A DNA stretch of 21,347 nt from a virus. A model generated the notes under the pieces. It saw nothing but the letters and a program-made list of their open reading frames with translations, had not been told where the DNA came from and ran no database searches. The translations under genes were made by a program, and so were the position numbers. Shown here in pieces: positions 4,051 to 21,324 of the stretch; position 1 is the stretch's first letter; every line of letters starts with the position of its first letter. The stretch lies in IMG/VR virus record IMGVR_UViG_3300042907_001027, positions 1 through 21,347 of that record, one strand, 5' to 3'.

Positions 4051-4147
4051 ATGAGCAACAGCCTGTTAACAATTGACATGATCACAAGGAAGGCGCTCGA
4101 AATCCTCGAGAACTCCCTTGTGATCACGCGCACTGTCAACCGTCAGT
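4051..4147 (+). CDS. major coat protein, exon 1 (residues 1-32 plus first base of codon 33)
   Basis: ATG 4051 follows an AAAGGA binding site. It encodes 32 residues starting 'MSNSLLTIDMITRKALEILE' and ending 'TRTVNRQ'. This is the conserved N-terminus of P22-type coat proteins, in which NRQ is normally followed at once by a Y/F-D-D-S-F sequence. Here an in-frame TAA (4147-4149) would end it. The T at 4147 is the last exon base. Joined to exon 2 it forms a TAT codon, giving 'NRQYDDSFAVEGAKIG', the expected family sequence. The spliced message encodes 398 residues (97 + 1100 bases, including stop). Without splicing only a 32-residue peptide would be made from this start. Confidence 0.9.
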
Positions 4148-4885
4148 AAACGTAAGTCTAGCTGACGTTAAACCCCGTTAATTGCTGGAAACCCCTTAGA
4201 GCCACATGCACCACAGCGTAGTTAGAAATGACAAGCGCGACGGTCTGAAAAGCCTGTGGATTGGGCAATCAGCAGCCAAGCATCTTATCACTTACTGTGA
4301 TATGATGAAGGTCCAACGACTAGAGCGAAAGCTCGTAGGGCCAAGCGGCCCGAAATGCGGGGTAGATATGAAGCGTGACTTGAAAGAGCGATTCTTCGCA
4401 AAGGTGGCGATACGTGAAAACGGATGTCATGAATGGACGGGATGCCTGATGCCTAACGGCTATGGTCAATTCCATAAGGACGGCAAGACTGCCTATGCTC
4501 ACCGCGTAGCCTTTGAGTTGGCTTACGGCGATCCGGGTCAGGCTTACATCCTTCATTCGTGCGACAACCGTAAGTGTGTGAACCCCGCGCATCTGTTTGC
4601 CGGAGATTTTGACGCCAACATGCAAGACATGGTGGATAAGAATCGACAGGCGCACGGAACCCGGAACGCGCACGCAAAACTCACGGAAGACCAGGTGCGA
4701 GAGATCCGCGCTTTTCGAGGCACGAACCGCGAAATAGCGGCTCAATACGGAGTGACCCCGTCATTGGTGTCCATGATCCGTAGCGGGCGTATTTGGCGTC
4801 ATATCTAAAGATATAGTCTGACCTGCCGTGAAAGCGGCAGCCGCGCAAGCGGGAGCAGAAGTAGCGATCTGCTTCGAACATGGTG
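4148..4885 (+). ncRNA. group I self-splicing intron in the coat gene
   Basis: The intron is 738 bases long. P1: the exon end cgtcagt (4141-4147) pairs with gctgacg (4161-4167), giving six Watson-Crick pairs plus the U·G that defines a group I 5' splice site. P4: attgc (4181-4185) pairs with gcaat (4265-4269) within typical P/Q core sequences ('aattgctggaaacc', 'gcaatcagcagcc'). P7: gacta (4318-4322, in 'ccaacgactagag') pairs with tagtc (4814-4818, in 'aagatatagtctgacc'), the R and S elements. A P9-like hairpin follows (4823-4828 with 4835-4840, GAAA loop). The last intron base is G4885 (omega-G). The endonuclease gene sits between the two P7 strands. Exact subgroup was not determined. Confidence 0.9.
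4368..4808 (+). CDS. intron-encoded HNH homing endonuclease (146 aa)
   Basis: The protein has 146 residues and starts at ATG 4368; the frame is open back to 4206, but that part is intron core RNA. An HNH_3-type nuclease core spans about residues 18-80: 'GCHEWTG', 'GYGQF', 'AHRVAFELAYG' (H45), then 'LHSCDNRKCVNPAHL' (H63, C65, C70, N72, H75), with the cysteines probably binding zinc. A C-terminal helix-turn-helix at about 104-146 ('TNREIAAQYGVTPSLVSMIR') probably gives target recognition. Such enzymes cut intronless copies of the host gene near the insertion site and spread the intron. It lies in the P8/P7 region, and its stop (4806-4808) is 5 bases before the second P7 strand. The binding site is weak (ggggtag), so expression may be low. 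Confidence 0.9.
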   Translation: MKRDLKERFFAKVAIRENGCHEWTGCLMPNGYGQFHKDGKTAYAHRVAFELAYGDPGQAYILHSCDNRKCVNPAHLFAGDFDANMQDMVDKNRQAHGTRNAHAKLTEDQVREIRAFRGTNREIAAQYGVTPSLVSMIRSGRIWRHI

Positions 4886-5985
4886 ATGACGATTCGTTTG
4901 CTGTAGAGGGCGCCAAGATCGGCTCGACCCTCCGCATCCGTCTGCCCGACCGCGCTCTGGTCACGGACGGCGCGGCCCTTCAGGTTCAGGACGACAACGA
5001 GCAGTACACCACGCTCGCGGTCTCCAGCCAGAAGCACATCGGCGTCAACTTTACGACCGCCGAACTGACGATGCAGTTGGACGACTTTGCCGACCGCGTC
5101 CTGAAGCCTCGTATTTCGCAGCTTGCCGCTTCTATCGACGCGGACGTTGCGAACAGCTTCAAGTATATCGGCAACTCGGTCGGCACGCCCGGCACGACGC
5201 CGGCCACGTCGCTCGTCCTGCTTCAGGCTCAGCAGAAGCTGAACGAGAACGCCGCCGTCATGTCGCCGCGCTACGCGACGGTCAACCCGGCCGCCAACGC
5301 CGCGCTGATCGAGGGCATGAAGGGTCTCTTCAACCCGGTCTCGGCCATCTCGAAGCAGTTCAAGAACGGCATGTTCGGTGAAGGCATCCTCGGCTATGAC
5401 GAGCTGAATATGTCGCAGTCGGTCAAGCAGTTCACGACTGGCTCGCGCGCGGGCACCGTCACGGTCAGCACCACCGTCACGGCTGAAGGTTCGACCAGCA
5501 TCGTGCTGACGGGTCTTGGCTCGACGACGATCAAGGCTGGCGACGTGTTCACGATTGGCAGCGTCTTCGCTGTCAACCCGCAGACGCGTGAATCGACTGG
5601 CTCGCTGTATCAGTTCGTGGCTCTGGCTGACGTTACGGCGTCCACCACGGCGACGGTCACTGTCCCGGCGATGTATTCGGCCGGTCAGGCGCTTGCCACG
5701 GTCGATGCGCTGCCGGTCAGCGGCGCGGCGGTCACGTTCGTCGGCGCTGCCTCGACGCAGTATCCGCAGAATCTGATCTACCACAAGGACGCCATCGCGT
5801 TCGCCACCGCCGACCTGCTCATGCCGCAAGGCGTCGATATGGCGTCGCGTCAGGTCCACAACGGCATCTCGCTCCGTATTGTTCGTCAGTATGACATCAA
5901 TAACGACCGGCTGCCGTGCCGCATCGATGTACTTTATGGCTACAGCGTCATTCGTCCGCAGATGGCCGTCCGTCTTTGGGGCTAA
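4886..5985 (+). CDS. major coat protein, exon 2 (P22-type coat, residues 33-398)
   Basis: Exon 2 encodes 'YDDSFAVEGAKIGSTLRIRL' (the Y is completed by exon 1) through to 'VIRPQMAVRLWG'. It matches the P22 coat family: an N-terminal arm, 'HIGVNFTTAELTMQLDDFAD', a helical core, 'VNPAANAALIEGMKGLFNP', an inserted beta domain (about residues 225-310), and a C-terminal 'MASRQVHNGISLRIVRQYDI'. The coat builds the icosahedral head with the scaffold protein at 3260-4030. An unspliced frame with a GTG at 4828 exists, but its first 20 residues (KAAAAQAGAEVAICFEHGD) are intron sequence, so annotating the gene from 4828 would give a wrong N-terminus. A terminator-like hairpin follows directly. Confidence 0.93.
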
Positions 5986-5986
5986 C

Positions 5987-6008
5987 AGATGGGGCTTCGG
6001 CCCCATCT
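5987..6008 (+). terminator. UUCG hairpin after the coat gene
   Basis: A perfect 9-base-pair stem (agatggggc at 5987-5995 with gccccatct at 6000-6008) is capped by a TTCG tetraloop. It begins two bases after the coat stop codon. The following bases (ccttctc) are pyrimidine-rich but not a true T-tract. It may act as a partial terminator or protect the abundant coat message from 3' decay. Confidence 0.7.
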
Positions 6009-6035
6009 CCTTCTCAATTCAAGGAGTTCTGAATC

Positions 6036-6503
6036 ATGGCTATCACTACTCAGGGCGCGTCCTACCCGCTCGAAGCCTTTGGCCCGACGCCCCCGCTTTC
6101 GCAGGGAACGGGCGGTTATCAGGTCGGCGCCGGCAACGGCGGCGACATGCTCTTCCGCGTTACGCCGACCCCGGCTACGCTGACGACCGGCGCTACGCTG
6201 ACCGGCGATCAGATCGTCACCGGTCTGATCCTTGGCTCTCCGACCGGCACCGCGTCGTCCTACCAGCTCCCGACGGTTGCGGCGCTGGAGACGGCGCTTC
6301 CGTCGTCCGCCAAGGTTGGCGCGACGATTGACTTCTCGGTCATCAACGTCGATGGCACGGGTTCGGGCGTCATCACGCTGACGACCAACACAGGCTGGAC
6401 GCTGGTCGGTCTTATGACGGTCGCAGCTACGGCTGGCACCGCGCAGGCGTTCCGCGCCCGCAAGACCGGCTCCAGCACATGGGCGCTCTATCGCGTCGCT
6501 TAA
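6036..6503 (+). CDS. small virion/decoration-type protein (155 aa)
   Basis: The protein has 155 residues and starts at ATG 6036 behind a strong AAGGAG site. It is a beta-rich Gly/Thr/Ala protein without cysteine or signal peptide. After 'GTASSYQLPTVAALETALPS' it has 'VGATIDFSVINVDGTGSGVI' and ends 'FRARKTGSSTWALYRVA'. Proteins of this shape commonly follow the coat gene in podovirus-like and siphovirus-like clusters and are often found in virions. A head decoration or capsid-associated role is the likeliest reading, but no specific family is certain. It lies between the hairpin after the coat gene and a similar-size protein at 6519. Confidence 0.75.
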   Translation: MAITTQGASYPLEAFGPTPPLSQGTGGYQVGAGNGGDMLFRVTPTPATLTTGATLTGDQIVTGLILGSPTGTASSYQLPTVAALETALPSSAKVGATIDFSVINVDGTGSGVITLTTNTGWTLVGLMTVAATAGTAQAFRARKTGSSTWALYRVA

Positions 6504-6518
6504 CCTCGGGAGAAGGCA

Positions 6519-7043
6519 ATGCCTAATACGAAACCAGTAGGCGTTGCGTTCAGCGACCCCGAATTGACCTCTGGCACTACGATTGCGGGCGCAACGATTG
6601 ACTCTACGTCGAAAGTTCTGTCCAACATCGCCAGTGGTCTCTCTATGGGACAGCAGGGCGCCACGATTGTCACTACCACCGGCGGGACCAACGATGTCTT
6701 CATGATCGCGCCGGCTGCCGGAGTTCTGTCGTCTGCGCTGTTCTCGGGCGTCGATGCCCTGACGGCCAACGATACGAACTACATCACGTTTGGCATCACC
6801 AACCTTGGTCAGGCTGGCGCAGGCACCGCAGCTATGCTCGCGGCGACCGACGCCAACACGACCAAGGCGACGGGCGGCACGGGCCTCGCGGCCAATACCG
6901 TCCGGTCGCTGACGCTGAATAGCACGGCGGCCAATCTCGTCGTCGCGGCCGGGGATCGCATCCGCATCCGCGCGACGGTCTCGGGAACGCTTGCCAATAC
7001 GGTGACGTTCCCGGTCTATCGCCTGACGTTCACGGTATCCTGA
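6519..7043 (+). CDS. small virion protein (174 aa)
   Basis: The protein has 174 residues and starts at ATG 6519 with a GGGAGAAGG site at ideal spacing. It is Ala/Thr/Gly-rich and predicted mostly beta: 'GLSMGQQGATIVTTTGGTND', 'LFSGVDALTANDTNYITFGI', and a C-terminal 'GDRIRIRATVSGTLANTVTF'. The pattern resembles single-domain jelly-roll proteins found in phage virions, such as decoration or fibre-head proteins. There is no enzymatic signature. It is in the same transcription unit as 6036-6503, 15 bases downstream, and is followed by a second hairpin. The exact function is unknown. Confidence 0.75.
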   Translation: MPNTKPVGVAFSDPELTSGTTIAGATIDSTSKVLSNIASGLSMGQQGATIVTTTGGTNDVFMIAPAAGVLSSALFSGVDALTANDTNYITFGITNLGQAGAGTAAMLAATDANTTKATGGTGLAANTVRSLTLNSTAANLVVAAGDRIRIRATVSGTLANTVTFPVYRLTFTVS

Positions 7044-7920: not shown

Positions 7921-8403
7921 TTACAAGGTGCAAGCTGCGTGAAACTTACGTTTAGCCGCAAGATAAGTCTGATGGGCTTCCTCGGGGGTTGTAAAGTCCC
8001 CCAGCCAATGCGTTTTTCCGCTATGCGTTATGCTTGCGCGCCACTTCCCCTGAAAGAGTATAACACCCATAAAACCCGATTTATTACGTTTGTTTGGTTT
8101 TCTAATGTTTTGGGAATTTCCCGACTCGTCTACAACGCGAAGATTTTCAAATCTGTTATCATCTTTTATGCCATTAATATGATCTATAAGACCGTTGGGC
8201 CACCTTCCGGTGACGTAAAGCCACGCCAGCCTATGCGCTTTGTATATCCTACCTCTATACCCGATTGTGCGGTAGCCGATTCGTTTTTCCTTGCACCCTG
8301 CCTCGCGGCCTTCCGAAATGCTTTTCGAAGGACGCACAAGCCAGACGAATTTTCCGGTCTGCGGGTCGTAGCTCAATATTTGTTTAAGTTCGTCAACTGT
8401 CAT
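7921..8403 (-). CDS. free-standing HNH endonuclease with AP2 DNA-binding domain
   Basis: The protein has 160 residues from ATG 8403 (reading leftward), behind an AGGGGAAAG site; the frame is open further upstream without a good start. The HNH core has 'YKAHRLAWLYVTGRWPNG' (H57), 'LIDHINGIKDDNRFENLR' (D74, H75, N77, N83, N87) and 'GNSQNI'. The AP2 domain at about 109-155 ('GFMGVILFQGKWRASI', 'LGDFTTPEEAHQTY') is a known target-recognition domain of homing endonucleases. It is the only leftward gene in the late block, lies 13 bases after the gp4-like stop, and is visibly more A+T-rich than both neighbours, all of which suggests recent insertion. No intron core is seen around it. Confidence 0.93.
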   Translation of the reverse strand: MTVDELKQILSYDPQTGKFVWLVRPSKSISEGREAGCKEKRIGYRTIGYRGRIYKAHRLAWLYVTGRWPNGLIDHINGIKDDNRFENLRVVDESGNSQNIRKPNKRNKSGFMGVILFQGKWRASITHSGKTHWLGDFTTPEEAHQTYLAAKRKFHAACTL

Positions 8404-8410
8404 ATACTTT

Positions 8411-8456
8411 CCCCTATAATAGTTTCTGAGTATATACACGAAGAAACTACTAGGGG
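8411..8456. promoter_or_regulatory. inverted repeat covering both divergent ribosome binding sites
   Basis: The arms are cccct-a (8411-8416) with taggggs-complement (8451-8456), and tagtttct (8420-8427) with agaaacta (8442-8449). Together they give 14 base pairs around a small internal loop and a 14-base end loop. The right arm holds the AGGGG binding site of the gp10-like gene. The left arm, read on the other strand, holds the AGGGG site of the HNH gene. A TATAAT sequence (8415-8420) is present on the plus strand but has no clear -35 box. Confidence 0.55.
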
Positions 8457-8462
8457 TCAAGT

Positions 8463-9893
8463 ATGAAGTCGCCAATTCTCGGTTCCGCCTACGTCACCCG
8501 CAGCGTAAATGCTGCGGACAACCGATGCGTCAATCTCTATCCCGAGATCGTGCCGGAGGGCGGCAAGGAAGCCGCCTTCCTTCAGCGCGCGCCGGGGCTG
8601 CGGCAGCTTGTGCAGCTTCCGACCGGGCCGGTGCGCGGGCTGTGGGCTTTTGGTGACTACGCGTATGCGGTGTCGGGAACCAAGCTCTATCAGATTGACT
8701 CAAACTGGATGTATGTTGAAAAAGGCACCGTGGCGGGCACGTCTCCGGTCAATATGGTGGACAACGGCACACAGTTGTTCATCGCTGCGGGCGCTACCGG
8801 CTACATCTACAACGCCGGCACGGGCGTATTCGCCCAAATCACAGACCCGGATTTCTACGGCGCAGTAGGCGTCGGGTTCATTGACGGCTACTTCGTCTAT
8901 AACGAGCCAAACAGCCAGAAGTTCTGGGTCACAACGCTCTACGACGGCACGTCAGTAGATCCTCTGGACTTTGCCAGCGCGGAAGGCTCGCCCGATGATC
9001 TGGTCACGCTGATCGTGGACCATCGCGAGGTCTGGCTGTTCGGCACAACGTCTGTCGAGGTCTGGTATAACGCCGGCCTGCCGGATTTCCCGCTCGCCCG
9101 TATTCAGGGTGCGTTCAACGAGATTGGCTGTCAGGCCCCCTATTCTGTCGCCAAACTGGACAACGGCCTGTTCTGGCTCGGGCGCGACGCGCGCGGCAAT
9201 GGTATCGTCTACCGATCCAAGGGCTACTCGGGGCAACGCATCTCAACCCACGCGGTCGAGTGGCAGATCCAGCAATACACGACGCTGGCCGACGCGGTCG
9301 CCTATACCTACCAGCAGGACGGCCACTCGTTCTATGTCCTGAACTTCCCGACCGCCAATACGACATGGGTCTACGATGTCTCGACCGAAGTCTGGCATGA
9401 GCGCGCTGGCTGGGAGAACAACGCATTCACTCGCCATCGCGGCCAGTGTCAGATGAACTTTGCGGACGAAATCGTCATCGGTGACTACGTTGCCGGTATC
9501 CTCTACGCATATGACATGACCGTCTATTCGGAGGCCGACACAATCCAGAAATGGCTCCGCTCGTGGCGGGCGCTTCCGACCGGGCAGAACGACCTGAAGC
9601 GCACGACGCAGCATAGCCTCCAGCTCGACTGCGAGTCAGGCGTCGGTCTTGCTACCGGGCAGGGCGATAACCCGCAGGTCATGCTACGCTGGTCGGACGA
9701 CGGCGGCCACACATGGTCGAACGAACATTGGAAGTCGATGGGGCAGATCGGCCAATATGGAAAGCGCGTCATCTGGCGGCGGCTTGGCATGACGACCAAG
9801 ATCCGCGACCGGGTCTATGAAGTGTCGGGGACCGACCCTGTCAAAATCGCAATCATGGGCGCCGAACTGATTCTGAGTCCGACCAATGCCTGA
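8463..9893 (+). CDS. P22 gp10-like packaged DNA stabilization / tail protein
   Basis: The protein has 476 residues, close to the 472 of P22 gp10. It starts 'MKSPILGSAYVTRSVNAADN' followed by 'RCVNLYPEIVPEGG' and 'APGLRQLVQLPTGPVRGLWA', the signature of the Phage_stabilise family. Later features include 'FASAEGSPDDLVTLIVDHRE', 'LFGTTSVEVWYNAG' and 'IGCQAPYSVAKLDNGLFWLG', all typical of this beta-propeller-like hub protein. It binds the gp4 ring, plugs the filled head and connects to the needle and fibres. The start ATG 8463 follows AGGGG. It overlaps the next gene by 8 bases. Confidence 0.93.
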   Translation: MKSPILGSAYVTRSVNAADNRCVNLYPEIVPEGGKEAAFLQRAPGLRQLVQLPTGPVRGLWAFGDYAYAVSGTKLYQIDSNWMYVEKGTVAGTSPVNMVDNGTQLFIAAGATGYIYNAGTGVFAQITDPDFYGAVGVGFIDGYFVYNEPNSQKFWVTTLYDGTSVDPLDFASAEGSPDDLVTLIVDHREVWLFGTTSVEVWYNAGLPDFPLARIQGAFNEIGCQAPYSVAKLDNGLFWLGRDARGNGIVYRSKGYSGQRISTHAVEWQIQQYTTLADAVAYTYQQDGHSFYVLNFPTANTTWVYDVSTEVWHERAGWENNAFTRHRGQCQMNFADEIVIGDYVAGILYAYDMTVYSEADTIQKWLRSWRALPTGQNDLKRTTQHSLQLDCESGVGLATGQGDNPQVMLRWSDDGGHTWSNEHWKSMGQIGQYGKRVIWRRLGMTTKIRDRVYEVSGTDPVKIAIMGAELILSPTNA

Positions 9894-10491
9894 CGTAGTC
9901 AACAACACCCAGATACCGGCGGCCCGTGTCCAGCTATGGGACGCCGTTACCAATTTCGTCTCGCGGGCGTGGTATCGGTGGTTTTATAACATGTATATCG
10001 CGGTCGAGGCCGGGCGGCGATACGGCTCGTTCTACAGCACGACGACCTTCACCATTCCGGTCATCAATACCGCCTACACGTTTACGTTCAACAACACGTT
10101 CACACGCGCCGACGGCTCGGATCTGGTCTATGGCGTCTACGTCGGCACACCAACGTCCCGCATATACGTAGACAATACGGCCACGTATAACTTCCAGTTC
10201 TCGGCGCAGATTGAGCAGACGAGCGGCGGCAAGCACGATGTGTATATTTGGCCCCGCGTGAATGGCGTCAATGTGGACGACTCAGCGACGCAGGTATCGC
10301 TGAACGGCGGGGCCGGATACGCCGCTGTCGCCGCGTGGAATTTTGTGCTAAACCTTCAGGCGGGTGACTATTTTGAGCTGGTGTATTCGGCCAACAGCAC
10401 AGGCGTCCAGATTCCGTATGTCGCTGCGTCCAGTCCGGTTCCGGCCATCCCTTCGGTCATATTGACCGTAACCAGTTGTGTAGGTGGATAA
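9886..10491 (+). CDS. tail/knob-associated virion protein (201 aa)
   Basis: The protein has 201 residues. The N-terminal 'QLWDAVTNFVSRAWYRWFYN' is an aromatic helix common in phage small tail proteins. The C-terminal half ('DVYIWPRVNGVNVDDSAT', 'AAVAAWNFVLNLQAGDYFEL', 'IPSVILTVTSCVGG') matches a widespread jelly-roll (C1q/TNF-like) module found in phage tail and fibre proteins. It sits between the gp10-like protein and a tail fibre and is translated by overlap with gp10, so a role in the short tail is likely. The exact partner is unknown. Confidence 0.8.
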   Translation: MPDVVNNTQIPAARVQLWDAVTNFVSRAWYRWFYNMYIAVEAGRRYGSFYSTTTFTIPVINTAYTFTFNNTFTRADGSDLVYGVYVGTPTSRIYVDNTATYNFQFSAQIEQTSGGKHDVYIWPRVNGVNVDDSATQVSLNGGAGYAAVAAWNFVLNLQAGDYFELVYSANSTGVQIPYVAASSPVPAIPSVILTVTSCVGG

Positions 10492-11754
10492 ATGACCGCT
10501 CTTACTCCTACCGCCAAAATGCAGTTCTTCAGGGCCAACGGCGAGCCGTTGGTTGGCGGGAAGCTCTACACCTATACGGCCGGCACGACGACGCCGCAGC
10601 CAACTTACACAGACAGCGCGGGCGGGACGGCCAACACCAACCCCGTCATTCTCGACAGCCGCGGCGAAGCCGACATTTGGCTTGGCGGCGCGACCTACAA
10701 GTTCAAGCTGGCTGACGCCAACGACGTCGAGATCTGGACCGTAGACAACATTTCCGCGCCCACGTCCGGCGTCTCCCCGGCGCTGTCGGGCAACGTGACG
10801 ATTGACACCAACTCGTCCAGCCCGGCGCTGAAGATCACGCAGACCGGCACCGGTTATGCGCTTCGGGTGCAGGATAGCGCGGACCCTGACGCGACCGCAA
10901 CGGTCATTGATAACACCGGACGTCTCGGCGTCGGGACCGTATCGCCGTCCGAGCTGGTGGACATCTCCGGCGGCAATCTGGCGTTCACGGCTGCGGGCGG
11001 CACGCTTTACGCCAAGATCACGCCGGGCGCGTTGCTGACGGACATCGCCGCTGATGGCGCAAAGGCGCTCACATTTACGACCGACAGCGTGGAACGTATC
11101 CGCATAACGGACACTGGTCTTGTTGGCATCGGTAAAACGCCATCGGCCGGCGTTGAGCTTGATGTTGTCGGCGATATTGCGGCGTCTGTCTCGGTCAAGA
11201 CGGATACGATCTCTGAACTGACATCCGCAGCCGGCGTCACAATCGACGGCGTTCTCTGCAAAGATAGTCAGGTCGCTCCGGCCAATCGCGTGATCACGGC
11301 GGCGACTGCGGTCGCAACGACGAGCGGGACAAACATCGATTTTACCGGAATACCGTCTTGGGTTAAGCGGATAACCGTTATATTTAATGGCGTTTCTACG
11401 GGTGGGACCAGCGATTTTATTGTTCAGTTGGGCACCGCAAGTGGCGTAGAGAATACCGGGTATAACTCAGTCGTAAATTCGTTCAATACTTCGCCGGGCG
11501 CTGCTACAAGCACAACCGCGTTTAATGTTTATCGCAGTTTTTCATCCAATGCTATGCTTGTGGATGGACACGTAATTTTGACCAACATTAGCGGAAATAT
11601 ATGGGTTGCAAGCGGTGCTCTCGTAAATGAGCAAGCCACTATTTCTATATCGGGCGGCCGAAAAACCACAGCCGCTACGTTGGATCGTGTGCGATTAACT
11701 ACATCAAGTGGCGATACTTTTGACGCGGGCAGCGTCAACATCTTCTACGAGTGA
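10492..11754 (+). CDS. tail fibre / tailspike-like protein (420 aa)
   Basis: The protein has 420 residues starting directly at the previous stop. The N-terminal domain (about 1-90: 'KMQFFRANGEPLVGGKLYTY', 'GTTTPQPTYTDS', 'NPVILDSRGEADIWL') is a common head-binding domain of short-tailed phage fibres. A repetitive beta shaft follows ('SSPALKITQTGTGYALRVQD', 'RIRITDTGLVGIGKTPS'). From about residue 265 the C-terminal module ('NIDFTGIPSWVKRITVIFNG' to 'GSVNIFYE') is a frequent exchangeable tip. The DNA of this tip (about 11330-11710) is more A+T-rich than the rest, which points to acquisition of a receptor-binding domain. No catalytic residues of a glycan-degrading spike are seen. Confidence 0.85.
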   Translation: MTALTPTAKMQFFRANGEPLVGGKLYTYTAGTTTPQPTYTDSAGGTANTNPVILDSRGEADIWLGGATYKFKLADANDVEIWTVDNISAPTSGVSPALSGNVTIDTNSSSPALKITQTGTGYALRVQDSADPDATATVIDNTGRLGVGTVSPSELVDISGGNLAFTAAGGTLYAKITPGALLTDIAADGAKALTFTTDSVERIRITDTGLVGIGKTPSAGVELDVVGDIAASVSVKTDTISELTSAAGVTIDGVLCKDSQVAPANRVITAATAVATTSGTNIDFTGIPSWVKRITVIFNGVSTGGTSDFIVQLGTASGVENTGYNSVVNSFNTSPGAATSTTAFNVYRSFSSNAMLVDGHVILTNISGNIWVASGALVNEQATISISGGRKTTAATLDRVRLTTSSGDTFDAGSVNIFYE

Positions 11755-17191: not shown

Positions 17192-17599
17192 CTAAAGAAT
17201 AGCGGCGCGGGCGGCGCGGGCGGCGCGTAGTTCCCCTGCGAGGACCATCACATCAATCGGTCGCGTGTCAGGGATATCGGGGTCTATCCACTGTGTTTCC
17301 GGCACGAATGGCTCCAGCGCCTCCCGCAGCCGCGCGTTTTCTTCGCGCAATGCGTTAAGGATTGATGTTCTTACCTTCAGCTTCGAGCTTTCTTCTTCGC
17401 GCAGGCGGGTGATTTCGCCCTGCATTTTCAGCTTGTCCGCCCAAAGACGGTCTCGCTCAGCGCTTAACGCCTCAACCTGACCGCGCAGGCTGGTGATTTC
17501 GTCAGCCGCCATCCAGTCAATATGCTCGCTCGGCTCTGTAATTCCTGTCGCAGTTTCCCAAGTCGCGCGACTGCGTAACGCTTTGACGAGATCAATCAT
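17192..17599 (-). CDS. coiled-coil hypothetical phage protein (135 aa)
   Basis: The protein has 135 residues from ATG 17599 (leftward), behind GGGAGGGAAGG; the frame is open further upstream but with no binding site. It starts 'MIDLVKALRSRATWETATGI', an N-terminus seen in several phage early proteins ('MAADEI' motif following). A coiled coil follows ('LRGQVEALSAERDRLWADKL', 'ILNALREENARLREALEPF') and an Ala/Arg end (17202-17228, 'RAARAARAAIL'). Function is unknown. It overlaps the upstream HTH gene by 8 bases, so the two are probably co-translated. Confidence 0.75.
   Translation of the reverse strand: MIDLVKALRSRATWETATGITEPSEHIDWMAADEITSLRGQVEALSAERDRLWADKLKMQGEITRLREEESSKLKVRTSILNALREENARLREALEPFVPETQWIDPDIPDTRPIDVMVLAGELRAARAARAAIL
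17202..17228 (+). repeat. 9-base tandem repeat, three copies
   Basis: gcggcgcgg occurs at 17202-17210 and 17211-17219, with a third copy (last base t) at 17220-17228. On the minus strand it encodes the C-terminal Ala-Arg-Ala repeat of the coiled-coil protein. A likely slippage-prone site. Confidence 0.85.
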
Positions 17600-17876
17600 C
17601 CTTCCCTCCCTCACGAATAGCGATGCGATGACTAACCCACATATTTTCCAAATTTTGAAAAAACTCTTTCGAGACCCCAAATATTTTTGCAAAATCATCA
17701 ATAACATCTTGACCCATTCTAAGATTTTCATCGTGAACATGAAAATATAAGTCAAGAGCTAAGAAATTTTCTTGAAAATCTCCCGACATCAAAGACGCTA
17801 AATACCCCATAGACCACCCCCTAGCCTTCATTTCATCTTTAATAAATTCGCTTGGGTGAAATCTTTCAGCCGGCAT
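17592..17876 (-). CDS. HigA-like helix-turn-helix protein (94 aa)
   Basis: The protein has 94 residues from ATG 17876. 'FHPSEFIKDEMKARGWSMGY' resembles the start of HigA/VapI antitoxin-type HTH proteins (HPGE-x-x-x-x-E-L...GW). 'FAKIFGVSKEFFQNLENMW' resembles their C-terminal signature (A-x-x-x-G-x-S-P-E-F-W-L-N-L). The central recognition helix is poorly matched, as in phage versions with 'ALDLY' inserted ('NFLALDLYFHVHDE'). No partner toxin gene is adjacent. The DNA of this gene is markedly more A+T-rich than its neighbours. It overlaps both neighbours by 8-11 bases. A regulator is likely; an orphan antitoxin is possible. Confidence 0.8.
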   Translation of the reverse strand: MPAERFHPSEFIKDEMKARGWSMGYLASLMSGDFQENFLALDLYFHVHDENLRMGQDVIDDFAKIFGVSKEFFQNLENMWVSHRIAIREGGKDD

Positions 17877-18249: not shown

Positions 18250-18332
18250 CACCAAACTCCCCCATCTTTCGTTGCCGTCAGCACCGCCGCCCAAATCAGC
18301 GCGGTCAGAATGACGATTATCCACTTGAGCAT
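18249..18332 (-). CDS. 27-residue membrane microprotein
   Basis: The ATG at 18332 (leftward) has a GAGGGA binding site 6-7 bases before it. The peptide is 'MLKWIIVILTALIWAAVLTA' then TKDGGVW: one membrane helix with a positive start and a short polar end. Its TGA stop shares the A with the next start (TGATG), a typical translation-coupling join, which supports expression. It also overlaps the HTH gene upstream by 16 bases. Function is unknown; phage early membrane peptides of this size often modify host physiology. Confidence 0.65.
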   Translation of the reverse strand: MLKWIIVILTALIWAAVLTATKDGGVW

Positions 18333-18505
18333 ATCTTGTCCCTCGCGGTCTCAAACAGCTTGCGGACGTTCGCCTCTGACGTGCCGATGATCGCGGCGAC
18401 TTCTTTCGTGCTTTTCGTCTTGCGCATCTCCCAGACCTGCCTCTCGCGGCCTGTCAGAATAAAGACGTTGTGCTGACCGGCTTTGCCGACGCCCTTGATG
18501 CTCAT
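18317..18505 (-). CDS. sigma-region-4/LuxR-like HTH protein (62 aa)
   Basis: The protein has 62 residues from ATG 18505; a GTG at 18535 in the same frame overlaps the upstream gene and is less likely. After a short N-terminus it has a complete HTH of the sigma-70 region 4/LuxR type: 'LTGRERQVWEMRKTKSTKEV' then 'AAIIGTSEANVRKLFETARDK'. It consists of little else, so it would be a small DNA-binding regulator. Its HTH matches that of the 120-residue protein at 19290-19652 at many key positions (L..R..Q.W, V..., T...V.KL...AR.K), so the two are probably related. Confidence 0.8.
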   Translation of the reverse strand: MSIKGVGKAGQHNVFILTGRERQVWEMRKTKSTKEVAAIIGTSEANVRKLFETARDKICSSG

Positions 18506-18522
18506 TTCTCTAGCCCCACAAA

Positions 18523-19293
18523 TTAAAGTCCGCACCAGCCGGCTTCGCAGCCGGGCGATTCGCTTCCGTCGTCCAACGAGAACTCACCGCGCTCGCATTC
18601 TGCCCACCGTATTATTTCTTTAATTCCTGTGGCGCCCATGTATCTGTATGGTCGGAACATGGTTCTGGGTTTGCCTTTGGATGTAAAGCCTAGAGAAGTC
18701 TCTAACTCAGCTATCTCCTCTACGCGCGCCGAATCCTTTGCCAGTTCGCGAAGATCCTGCCTGTTTGAGTTGATGCAGGGGAAGCACTCCATCGACCGAT
18801 GAGGCAATGGTGCAACGCCAGCACGCCCCAAAAGCTCGTTACGCATGACCTCTGTGTGCGCCACAAGCGGAGCCCAGACGGTTCTTCCTTGCAGGTCTAC
18901 ACCAAACTCAGGAAACGCCGCTCTGTTCGCGCTTTCCTCCCGCCTTACACCTATTAACTGAATAGATGTGCTTTGCGGATCGTTCTCTTCCAGCCATTTT
19001 ATAGACGGCGCTATCTTCAATTCTTGCGTGCAGAACTGAATGCCTTGACGAGGCCATGACTTTTTTTGCCTCACCAGATTTTCCATGCCGATTGACTTGG
19101 TTCTGTGCGTATCAAAGCCTAAAGATCGCGCCCACATCTCCATTTCTGATACGCGGCTATCCCAGTTGCGAGAGGCCCATCCGGTGTCGTTATACAAGAT
19201 TGCAACGCAATCCAGCTTTTGCTCAAACGCCCACTGGATGAGTGCAATGCTATCGTTTCCGTAGCTTGCTTTGACTACATAAGCGTAGTTCAT
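18523..19293 (-). CDS. PAPS-reductase-family (ATP-pyrophosphatase fold) protein (256 aa)
   Basis: The protein has 256 residues from ATG 19293. The N-terminal 'VVKASYGNDSIALI' is an S-x-G-x-D-S pyrophosphate loop (S10-S15). 'AILYNDTGWA' and 'QFCTQELKIAP' (C88-T-x-x-L-K) and 'IGVRREES' (R117, R118) are core motifs of the PAPS reductase/DndC-like family. Added cysteines, C170-x2-C173 ('MECFPC') and C249-x4-C254 ('CEAGWCGL'), could bind an iron-sulfur cluster or zinc. Sulfate assimilation is one option; nucleotide, DNA or tRNA thiolation or another adenylation chemistry are others, since no companion enzymes (Dnd, sulfotransferase) lie in the window. It overlaps the HTH gene before it by 4 bases (ATGA). 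Confidence 0.88.
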   Translation of the reverse strand: MNYAYVVKASYGNDSIALIQWAFEQKLDCVAILYNDTGWASRNWDSRVSEMEMWARSLGFDTHRTKSIGMENLVRQKKSWPRQGIQFCTQELKIAPSIKWLEENDPQSTSIQLIGVRREESANRAAFPEFGVDLQGRTVWAPLVAHTEVMRNELLGRAGVAPLPHRSMECFPCINSNRQDLRELAKDSARVEEIAELETSLGFTSKGKPRTMFRPYRYMGATGIKEIIRWAECERGEFSLDDGSESPGCEAGWCGL

Positions 19294-19652
19294 TTAAGTC
19301 CGATCCCCAGCTTCTCTCTTGCTTGCGCCACCAGCTTTCCAACAGCGTTCGGTGTGCAGTTCATCTTCTCTCCGACCTGCACCATGGTCAGGCCCTCACA
19401 ATGCAACGCCCACGCCTGCTTTTGGCGTTCGGACAGTTCGTCGCTGCGCAACTGCGGCCTGAACGAATGGCGCGCGGGCTGAAAGTCCGGCACAGGCTCC
19501 GGCTCCGGCTCCTTCAGCGGCGGCCACGGCACGTAGTCCGGCTGACGCTCCAGCCATTGCACACGTGGTAACGACAGCAGCACCAGCCGTCCGTCGCCGG
19601 GACCGCAAGAGATGCCGCTGCGAACGTGAACATATTTGCTCACCTTGTTCAC
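19290..19652 (-). CDS. protein with C-terminal sigma-region-4-like HTH (120 aa)
   Basis: The protein has 120 residues from ATG 19652, overlapping the DUF6378-like gene by 4 bases. The first ~70 residues are proline- and arginine-rich with no known domain ('LKEPEPEPVPDFQPARHSFR'). Residues 73-118 form an HTH: 'LSERQKQAWALHCEGLTMVQ' then 'VGEKMNCTPNAVGKLVAQAR'. The protein would bind DNA as a small regulator. The start of its N-terminal half may be a flexible arm. It directly precedes the PAPS-reductase-family gene, with which it shares a 4-base overlap. Confidence 0.78.
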   Translation of the reverse strand: MNKVSKYVHVRSGISCGPGDGRLVLLSLPRVQWLERQPDYVPWPPLKEPEPEPVPDFQPARHSFRPQLRSDELSERQKQAWALHCEGLTMVQVGEKMNCTPNAVGKLVAQAREKLGIGLK

Positions 19653-19900
19653 AGCCTGTCCTCGATCAGTTTGGCGTAACCCTGAATGTCATGCCAGTGG
19701 TCGGCATGGTTCGGGTTGCCGGCCAGAATGCGCCCCATCTTATGGACGATCATGTCCAGCGACTCGCGCTGCATGGCGCTCAGGTTTTTCCAGCCCGGCT
19801 GGTTCTGGATGACCGTCTTCAGCATCTGCGTCACACGCGCATGGTCGGCAAAGTCGCCGTGTGTCGCGTTGCGGTCCTCAAGCGTTTGCTGCACAGACAC
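19649..19900 (-). CDS. DUF6378-like protein (83 aa)
   Basis: The protein has 83 residues from ATG 19900. 'LEDRNATHGDFADHARVTQM' (R-x-x-x-H/Y-G-D-F), 'QRESLDMIVHKMGRILAGNP' and 'HADHWHDIQGYAKLIEDRL' match the DUF6378 pattern of small phage proteins. These have a G-D-(Y/F) start, a middle 'L-x-M-I-x-x-K-(I/M)-x-R', and an end 'D-x-W-x-D-I-x-G-Y-A'. The fold is helical and its function is unknown, although it resembles MazG-like nucleotide hydrolase helices. It overlaps both the upstream and downstream genes. Confidence 0.85.
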   Translation of the reverse strand: MSVQQTLEDRNATHGDFADHARVTQMLKTVIQNQPGWKNLSAMQRESLDMIVHKMGRILAGNPNHADHWHDIQGYAKLIEDRL

Positions 19901-20066
19901 GCTCGATCTCCTCCCGTTCTCGTTGCGCCCGCAGCGCGCACAGGCGCTGGTGCAGGCGGATCATGAATGTGCGCCGGCGGTCGCCGCGACGCTCCTCCTC
20001 CAGCATCTGCCGGAGTTCGGTCTCCGACAGATCCATGATGATTTCATGCAGTTCTCGATAGTTCAT
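19878..20066 (-). CDS. small basic/acidic helical phage protein (62 aa)
   Basis: The protein has 62 residues from ATG 20066: 'MNYRELHEIIMDLSETELRQ' then 'MLEEERRGDRRRTFMIRLHQ' and 'LRAQREREEIERVCAANA'. It is one or two long charged helices without a catalytic or metal motif. It overlaps the helicase's end by 23 bases and the DUF6378-like start by 23 bases, so all three are probably translated from one message. I do not recognise a family beyond similar short proteins between helicases and DUF6378 genes in phages. Confidence 0.7.
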   Translation of the reverse strand: MNYRELHEIIMDLSETELRQMLEEERRGDRRRTFMIRLHQRLCALRAQREREEIERVCAANA

Positions 20067-21324
20067 CCAACGCCACCTCTGCTAAAGATCTTTTATCCTT
20101 TAACGCTTGCATGATCCTTTCGTCAATAGTTTTTTCACAGATCAGGTTGTAGACCCACACGTCGCGCGTCTGGCCGGAGCGGTGCAGCCGGCCGATGGTC
20201 TGCTCGTAGAGTTCAAGCGACCACGGCAGAGACAAAAAGACGATCTTGTTACCGCCGTGCTGAAGATTTAGCCCGTGACCAGCGCTCTTGGGGTGGAGCA
20301 GCAGCAGCTCGACCTTGCCGGCGTTCCAGTCGTCAATATTGCCGTCCACCATCCGCGCCTTCGGGTAGCGGCGCTGGAGTTCGGCCAGCTCTTCCTTGTA
20401 GTTGTAGACGATGATGGTGTTGTCGCGCTGGTTCTCTTCAAGGATCTCGTCCAGCAGGTCATACTTGTGCGGGGACAGCCACTCCGCGCCTGACGGCCCG
20501 TAGACCCATCCGCCGGCCAGTTGCTGTAGCTTGGTCGTCACCGACGCCGCAGTCGGCGCCGTGATCGTCTCGCCCAGCTCCAGCACGAAGTCCTTCTTCA
20601 TGCGGTTGTAGGGCTCCAGATCCATCGAGCAGCGCATTTCGACCGTGTGCAGCGCGGGTAGCCGATCCTTATACTCGCCGGGCTCCAGCACGAAGGTCGC
20701 CGGCTTGATCGTCTCCATGACGCGCTCCAGCGCGCCGGGCAGCGGCTCCCACATACCGAACTCGCGGTGGATACAACAGAAGAACTGTTGCATGAACGCG
20801 CCCTTTGACCGGCCCAGCAGCGCGCGGTCCACGATCTTGCATTGGCCAAACACGTCCTCCAGCCCGTTCGATGTGAACGAGCCGGTCAGGCCCCAGCGGA
20901 TCTCGACGCCCTCGATCCGCTTCTCCAGCTTCTTGAACCGCACGCCGGACGGGTTCTTCAGCCGCGTCAGTTCGTCGAAGACAATGCCGTCGAAGTCGCC
21001 TTCGATTGATTCGACGTTCTCGAAGTTGGTGACGACGACCTGCGTGTCGGCTTTGAACGCCGCGCGGCGCTGCTTTGGCGTGCCGACCGCGACAGACATG
21101 GTCAGGGTCGGAGCCCACTTCGGCTGCTCGACCGGCCAGACGGACTGCGCCACGCGCTTGGGGGCCAGCACCAGCCAGCGCCGGACCAGCCCGCGCGCTG
21201 TCATGTCCTGCATCGCTGTTAGCGTGATGGCTGTTTTGCCCGCGCCGACTGGCGCGAGGATCATCGCACGGTCACGCTCAAACAGGAAATCGGCGGCTAC
21301 TTCTTGATAAGGTCGCAGGCCCAT
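20044..21324 (-). CDS. SNF2-type DEAD-box-like helicase (426 aa)
   Basis: The protein has 426 residues from ATG 21324, behind AAAGGAACAGG; the start of the leftward operon as seen here. Motifs: 'LRPYQEVA' (Q-motif-like), Walker A APVGAGKT (24-31), Ia 'VLAPKRV', DELT in place of DEAH (117-120), III 'TGSF' (147-150), V 'SAGHGLNLQHGGN' and VI 'QTIGRLHRSGQTRDV' (375-389). The set matches phage SNF2-family helicases. It probably moves along DNA using ATP in replication, recombination or branch migration. The family usually works on double-stranded DNA. At 426 residues it is a minimal form with no added domain. Confidence 0.93.
   Translation of the reverse strand: MGLRPYQEVAADFLFERDRAMILAPVGAGKTAITLTAMQDMTARGLVRRWLVLAPKRVAQSVWPVEQPKWAPTLTMSVAVGTPKQRRAAFKADTQVVVTNFENVESIEGDFDGIVFDELTRLKNPSGVRFKKLEKRIEGVEIRWGLTGSFTSNGLEDVFGQCKIVDRALLGRSKGAFMQQFFCCIHREFGMWEPLPGALERVMETIKPATFVLEPGEYKDRLPALHTVEMRCSMDLEPYNRMKKDFVLELGETITAPTAASVTTKLQQLAGGWVYGPSGAEWLSPHKYDLLDEILEENQRDNTIIVYNYKEELAELQRRYPKARMVDGNIDDWNAGKVELLLLHPKSAGHGLNLQHGGNKIVFLSLPWSLELYEQTIGRLHRSGQTRDVWVYNLICEKTIDERIMQALKDKRSLAEVALDELSRTA

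Follow-up and report, generated by a model that had tools for sequence, protein, structure and literature searches.

Related PP-loop enzymes and the family of the window protein

Phage genes named as PAPS reductase have been read as sulfate-assimilation auxiliary genes (PMC7785012; PMC6145125), and virome studies often count genes of the family treated here in the same way. In DndC, Cys146, Cys280 and Cys283 are the cluster-ligand cysteines common to this protein and APS reductase (PMC12193691). The PP-loop proteins TtuA, NcsA and LarE carry [4Fe-4S] clusters and insert sulfur. CasCysH of type IV-B CRISPR, which is linked to csf genes, is a mobile-element PP-loop relative with an ATP-type loop and is reported to have no catalytic cysteine (PMC8175902). 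In phage lambda, loss of the nin genes does not abolish plaque formation, and knockdown of ninC is harmless when Q is supplied (PMC10695390). Given that lambda plaques without nin genes, any function of NinC is dispensable in the laboratory.

The DNA analysed is a stretch of 21,347 nucleotides from a virus (IMG/VR record IMGVR_UViG_3300042907_001027), referred to as the window. The enzyme gene opens with an ATG, and its features and neighbours are presented in Table 1. The protein matches the Pfam family PAPS_reduct (PF01507) with an E-value of 1.1e-8 and 35.7 bits, over a cut-off of 22.5, and the profile of phrog_424 with an E-value of 9.3e-27 across the core domain (residues 5-251), both of which are far beyond chance. 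Lambda NinC matches phrog_424 with an E-value of 1.2e-89 and scores 65 bits against the whole-family profile. The window protein is thus almost certainly a new member of this known phage family: the PAPS-reductase or PP-loop fold given in the preliminary description is borne out, but the protein is no lone oddity.

Table 1. Positions of the enzyme gene, its motifs and the adjoining genes in the window
Feature	Position	Strand	Remarks
NinC/phrog_424-family PP-loop protein, 256 aa	18523..19293	-	Pfam and PHROG profile matches, AF2 model
PP-loop S10-Y-G-N-D-S15	19249..19266	-	87-88 of 89 family members retain the S, G, D and S residues
C88 in FCTQELK	19030..19032	-	aligned position is a cluster cysteine in both APS reductase and DndC
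C170-x-x-C173	18775..18786	-	aligned positions are the CxxC cluster ligands in both enzymes, APS reductase and DndC
C249-x4-C254, invariant C-terminal tail pair	18532..18549	-	absent from 8 DndC and 6 APS reductases; tail pLDDT 46-59
HTH1, sigma-70 region 4-like, upstream neighbour	19290..19652	-	part of older helicase-DUF6378-HTH1-HTH2 block
HTH2, weakly sigma-70 region 4-like, downstream neighbour	18317..18505	-	profile match
GGGCTAGAGAAATGAGC, leftover HTH1 3' end running into HTH2 start	18500..18516	-	identical in empty sites

The nearest named relatives are encoded by Rhizobium phage RHph_X2_30 (53% identity) and by an Alteromonas plasmid (43%), and the protein of a sister phage (L001/G001) is 85% identical. 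Relatives are many in the viral contig scans, whereas bacterial matches are few (two loci in genome contigs, and 3 of 398 genomes, one of which was already known), which argues that the family is mainly virus-borne; a chromosomal origin of the gene was rejected on these bacterial counts. In the tree, a 43-member subfamily forms a clade with a support of 0.81, and the window and sister-phage proteins group with 0.98; how DndC branches relative to the phage groups varies with rooting, and no order is claimed. Between the window gene and its sister copy, dN is 0.11 and dS about 2.4 (saturated). Such strong purifying selection indicates the gene is not a decaying pseudogene. PDB entry 21fy, labelled 'PptA', is the solved structure of a distant relative; the literature search found no publication on it, and it was left aside. 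On Alteromonas plasmid L009, two genes of the PAPS-reductase family (9950-10948 and 19710-20714) are separated by about 9 kb.

Lambda NinC and the window protein share a PP-loop, an FCT-x-x-LK-type motif, a CxxC, a C-terminal cysteine pair and surroundings of DNA-metabolism genes. However, the two sequences are distant: the NinC loop reads SGGRTS, its tail cysteines are spaced as CSESC, and its middle region differs. In viral contig L031, a NinC-like gene and one of the window subfamily adjoin each other (5081-5923 and 5995-6849), so the two are distinct lineages that coexist.

Fold, PP-loop and conserved cysteines

The AlphaFold2 model, built from 52 sequences, has a mean pLDDT of 92.9 and is poor only in the last 16 residues (46-59). 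Its best Foldseek and VIA-align matches are PAPS and APS reductases (VIA Z 12-13, rmsd 2.9-4.2), with further matches to TtuA, NcsA and LarE, which were compared by fold alone (VIA Z about 11-12); function is not shown by such a shared fold. All the motifs previously claimed are present, namely S10-Y-G-N-D-S15, F87-C-T-Q-E-L-K93, C170/C173 (in ECFPC) and C249/C254 (in GCEAGWCG). Judged from its residues, the ATP-type PP-loop is intact, and its S-x-G-x-D-S pattern resembles the SGGKDS of DndC.

Among 89 distinct family members, C88, C170, C173 and C249 never vary, and C254 is absent only at contig ends. The invariance of C88 and C170/C173 is biased, however, because these residues were partly among the search patterns, which C249/C254 were not. 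The four cysteines first listed are conserved, and the cysteine of the FCT motif joins them, giving five. When the family profile is aligned to APS reductase 2goy, C88 falls on the second cysteine of the CC pair and C170/C173 fall on the CxxC. In a joint alignment, these three positions are cysteines in 91 of 91 phage proteins, all eight DndC proteins and all six APS reductases, whereas C249/C254 have no counterpart in either enzyme. Together with the published DndC ligands, this alignment suggests the pattern consists of a shared cluster triad and a family-specific tail pair. C249/C254 are a separate pair on a low-confidence, probably mobile C-terminal tail of the model. The metal or cluster site of the preliminary description holds as a conserved cysteine site, but its grouping of C170/C173 with C249/C254 is probably not the cluster, since C88/C170/C173 match the known Fe-S triad.

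Comparison with DndC gives a profile-profile probability of 99.4%, and the PP-loop, the C-T-x-x-LK cysteine (WCT-x-x-LK in DndC) and the CxxC lie at aligned positions; yet with the curated DndC model, whose cut-off is 290.4 bits, the protein scores 21.6. In the eight DndC proteins retrieved, five cysteines do not vary: one in WCT-x-x-LK, the two of the CxxC, and a further two N-terminal to it. The extra DndC pair (C252/C263) thus precedes the CxxC and has no counterpart in the window protein, whose own pair sits at the C-terminus. The 16 viral records searched, some of them fragments, contain no gene for DndD or a cysteine desulfurase, and a PADLOC scan of the neighbours shows no Dnd or sulfur-donor partner among its best 25 families. 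The identification of the protein as DndC itself was rejected given the score far below cut-off and the lack of the DndC pair and, in those 16 records, of DndD and desulfurase partners. The SspD and BrxP profiles match only weakly (18.1 and 17.8 bits), which does not place the protein in either group. Curated TtcA and ThiI models are not among the matches listed at E-values up to 1, ThiI being a fold match only.

Across the family, the neighbouring genes include helicase, SSB, ERF, RusA, DnaB and methyltransferase genes. A fixed partner gene was rejected, since every Pfam or PHROG family occurs in at most 3 of 114 neighbours. The sister phage encodes two SNF2-type helicases (L001 6065-7375 and L121 6388-7665) related to the window helicase at 20044-21324.

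Candidate function and competing explanations

We consider there to be about an even chance that the window protein is an ATP-dependent, Fe-S-type sulfur-transfer enzyme of a phage DNA-metabolism module, as its motifs and the model suggest. In this working model, for which TtuA, NcsA and LarE serve as precedent, the protein would act as a PP-loop ATP pyrophosphatase, with the C88/C170/C173 triad holding a putative [4Fe-4S] cluster. ATP would be split to AMP and PPi, adenylating a candidate substrate, and the cluster, the C249/C254 tail pair or both may hand on sulfur from a host cysteine desulfurase. The most likely product would be a thiolated nucleic acid or nucleotide of early phage DNA metabolism, the candidate substrates being phage DNA, RNA or a nucleotide. 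A broader version, in which the whole NinC/phrog_424 family, lambda included, consists of stand-alone [4Fe-4S] phage nucleic-acid thiolation enzymes that work without Dnd partners, use a swinging tail pair and host-desulfurase sulfur, and mark phage DNA or RNA, is speculative and, on balance, unlikely. As lambda NinC belongs to the same family, the function of this long-unexplained gene becomes testable in E. coli K-12.

That the gene instead encodes a PAPS/APS (sulfonucleotide) reductase and boosts sulfate assimilation as an auxiliary metabolic gene seems very improbable, although the Pfam match, the presence of CysH and APS reductase among the best fold matches, and the correspondence of C88/C170/C173 to APS reductase ligands speak for it. 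Scores with the NCBIfam models for CysH and APS reductase reach only 15.9, 13 and 12.4 bits, against cut-offs of 154, 254.2 and 235.3, so canonical CysH, one of the checks proposed for this gene, is not reached. The fetched APS reductases carry CC, CxxC and ECGLH, with the ECGLH cysteine in six of six; the window protein has three of the four cluster cysteines, F87 replacing the first of the CC pair (F87-C88), and ends in GCEAGWCGL in place of ECGLH. Its PP-loop is of the ATP type with S15, versus GAEDV in APS reductase. Moreover, just one of the 16 viral records has a second PAPS_reduct gene (such as CysD), that gene being NinC-like, and the family's neighbours are DNA-metabolism genes. As noted at the outset of this work, no sulfate-assimilation partner is seen in the window (a 21-kb fragment), nor was one seen in the sampled neighbours. 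The window member and its relatives therefore do not fit the auxiliary-gene reading common in virome studies, and appear nearer to DndC-type sulfur chemistry than to sulfate assimilation.

The remaining alternatives dispense with sulfur transfer or with catalysis. In one, a structural zinc site (a ribbon) is built from C170/C173 together with C249/C254, and the substrate is adenylated or modified without sulfur chemistry; the spacing of CxxC and CxxxxC is common for zinc sites and all four residues are invariant, but the model gives the C249/C254 tail low confidence and shows no ordered, packed site there, and C88, aligned with a cluster ligand, is equally invariant, which leaves this explanation rather doubtful. 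In the other, the protein is no catalyst but counteracts, or serves as a decoy for, a host defence built on a related enzyme (DndC, SspD or BrxP). The weak profile matches to those three proteins would suit such a role, as would a virus-borne, patchy gene inserted in the manner of accessory genes; however, a decoy does not need the strongly conserved catalytic PP-loop and five cysteines, and we regard it as most unlikely. With sulfur transfer as the preferred reading, the nucleotide or DNA thiolation first offered as an option is still live as a thiolation-like role, but the accompanying suggestion that the gene is under its own control fails, as described below.

Insertion between two HTH genes and other features of the window

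The spacing given in the preliminary description is correct: the enzyme gene overlaps HTH1 by four bases (19290-19293), and the ATG of HTH2, at 18505, lies 17 bases past the enzyme stop. The two HTH proteins were called related, and both do weakly match sigma-70 region 4 as a fold class, but BLASTP finds no alignment between them. In scans with HTH1 and HTH2, the two genes abut with nothing between them in 14 distinct related viral contigs, the sister phage included. The latter (L001/G001) keeps a block of helicase, 62-aa ORF, DUF6378, HTH1 and HTH2, in which the HTH1 stop overlaps the HTH2 start, and carries its enzyme gene about 4.5 kb from this block on the opposite strand. The sequence GGGCTAGAGAAATGAGC, which is the HTH1 end in empty sites, persists after the enzyme stop in the window. 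By these sequence comparisons, the enzyme gene is mobile phage cargo inserted between two older HTH genes. Given that it fills the HTH1/HTH2 junction, the four-base overlap is the old HTH1/HTH2 overlap re-used, and the HTH genes stand beside the enzyme gene by accident of insertion. Dedicated regulation by HTH1 and HTH2, as the earlier idea of own control implied, was rejected: it is contradicted by the 14 enzyme-free contigs and by the different place of the gene in the sister phage. The GC content of the enzyme gene is 0.52, versus 0.60-0.61 in HTH1, DUF6378 and the helicase.

A small ORF at 17592-17876, with a weak transcriptional-regulator match, has a GC content of 0.375 in a window of 0.583, and is possibly another recent insertion. 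Elsewhere, a group I intron at 4109-4840 (Rfam RF00028, 79.9 bits, E-value 2.2e-20) interrupts the P22-type coat protein gene, whose first exon runs from about 4051 and whose coat ORF spans 4828-5985; an HNH endonuclease ORF (4206-4808) lies within the intron, and the coat gene of the sister phage is uninterrupted. An HNH/AP2-type endonuclease ORF at 7921-8475 (-) runs against the direction of the structural genes, and a related ORF occupies the corresponding site in the sister phage.
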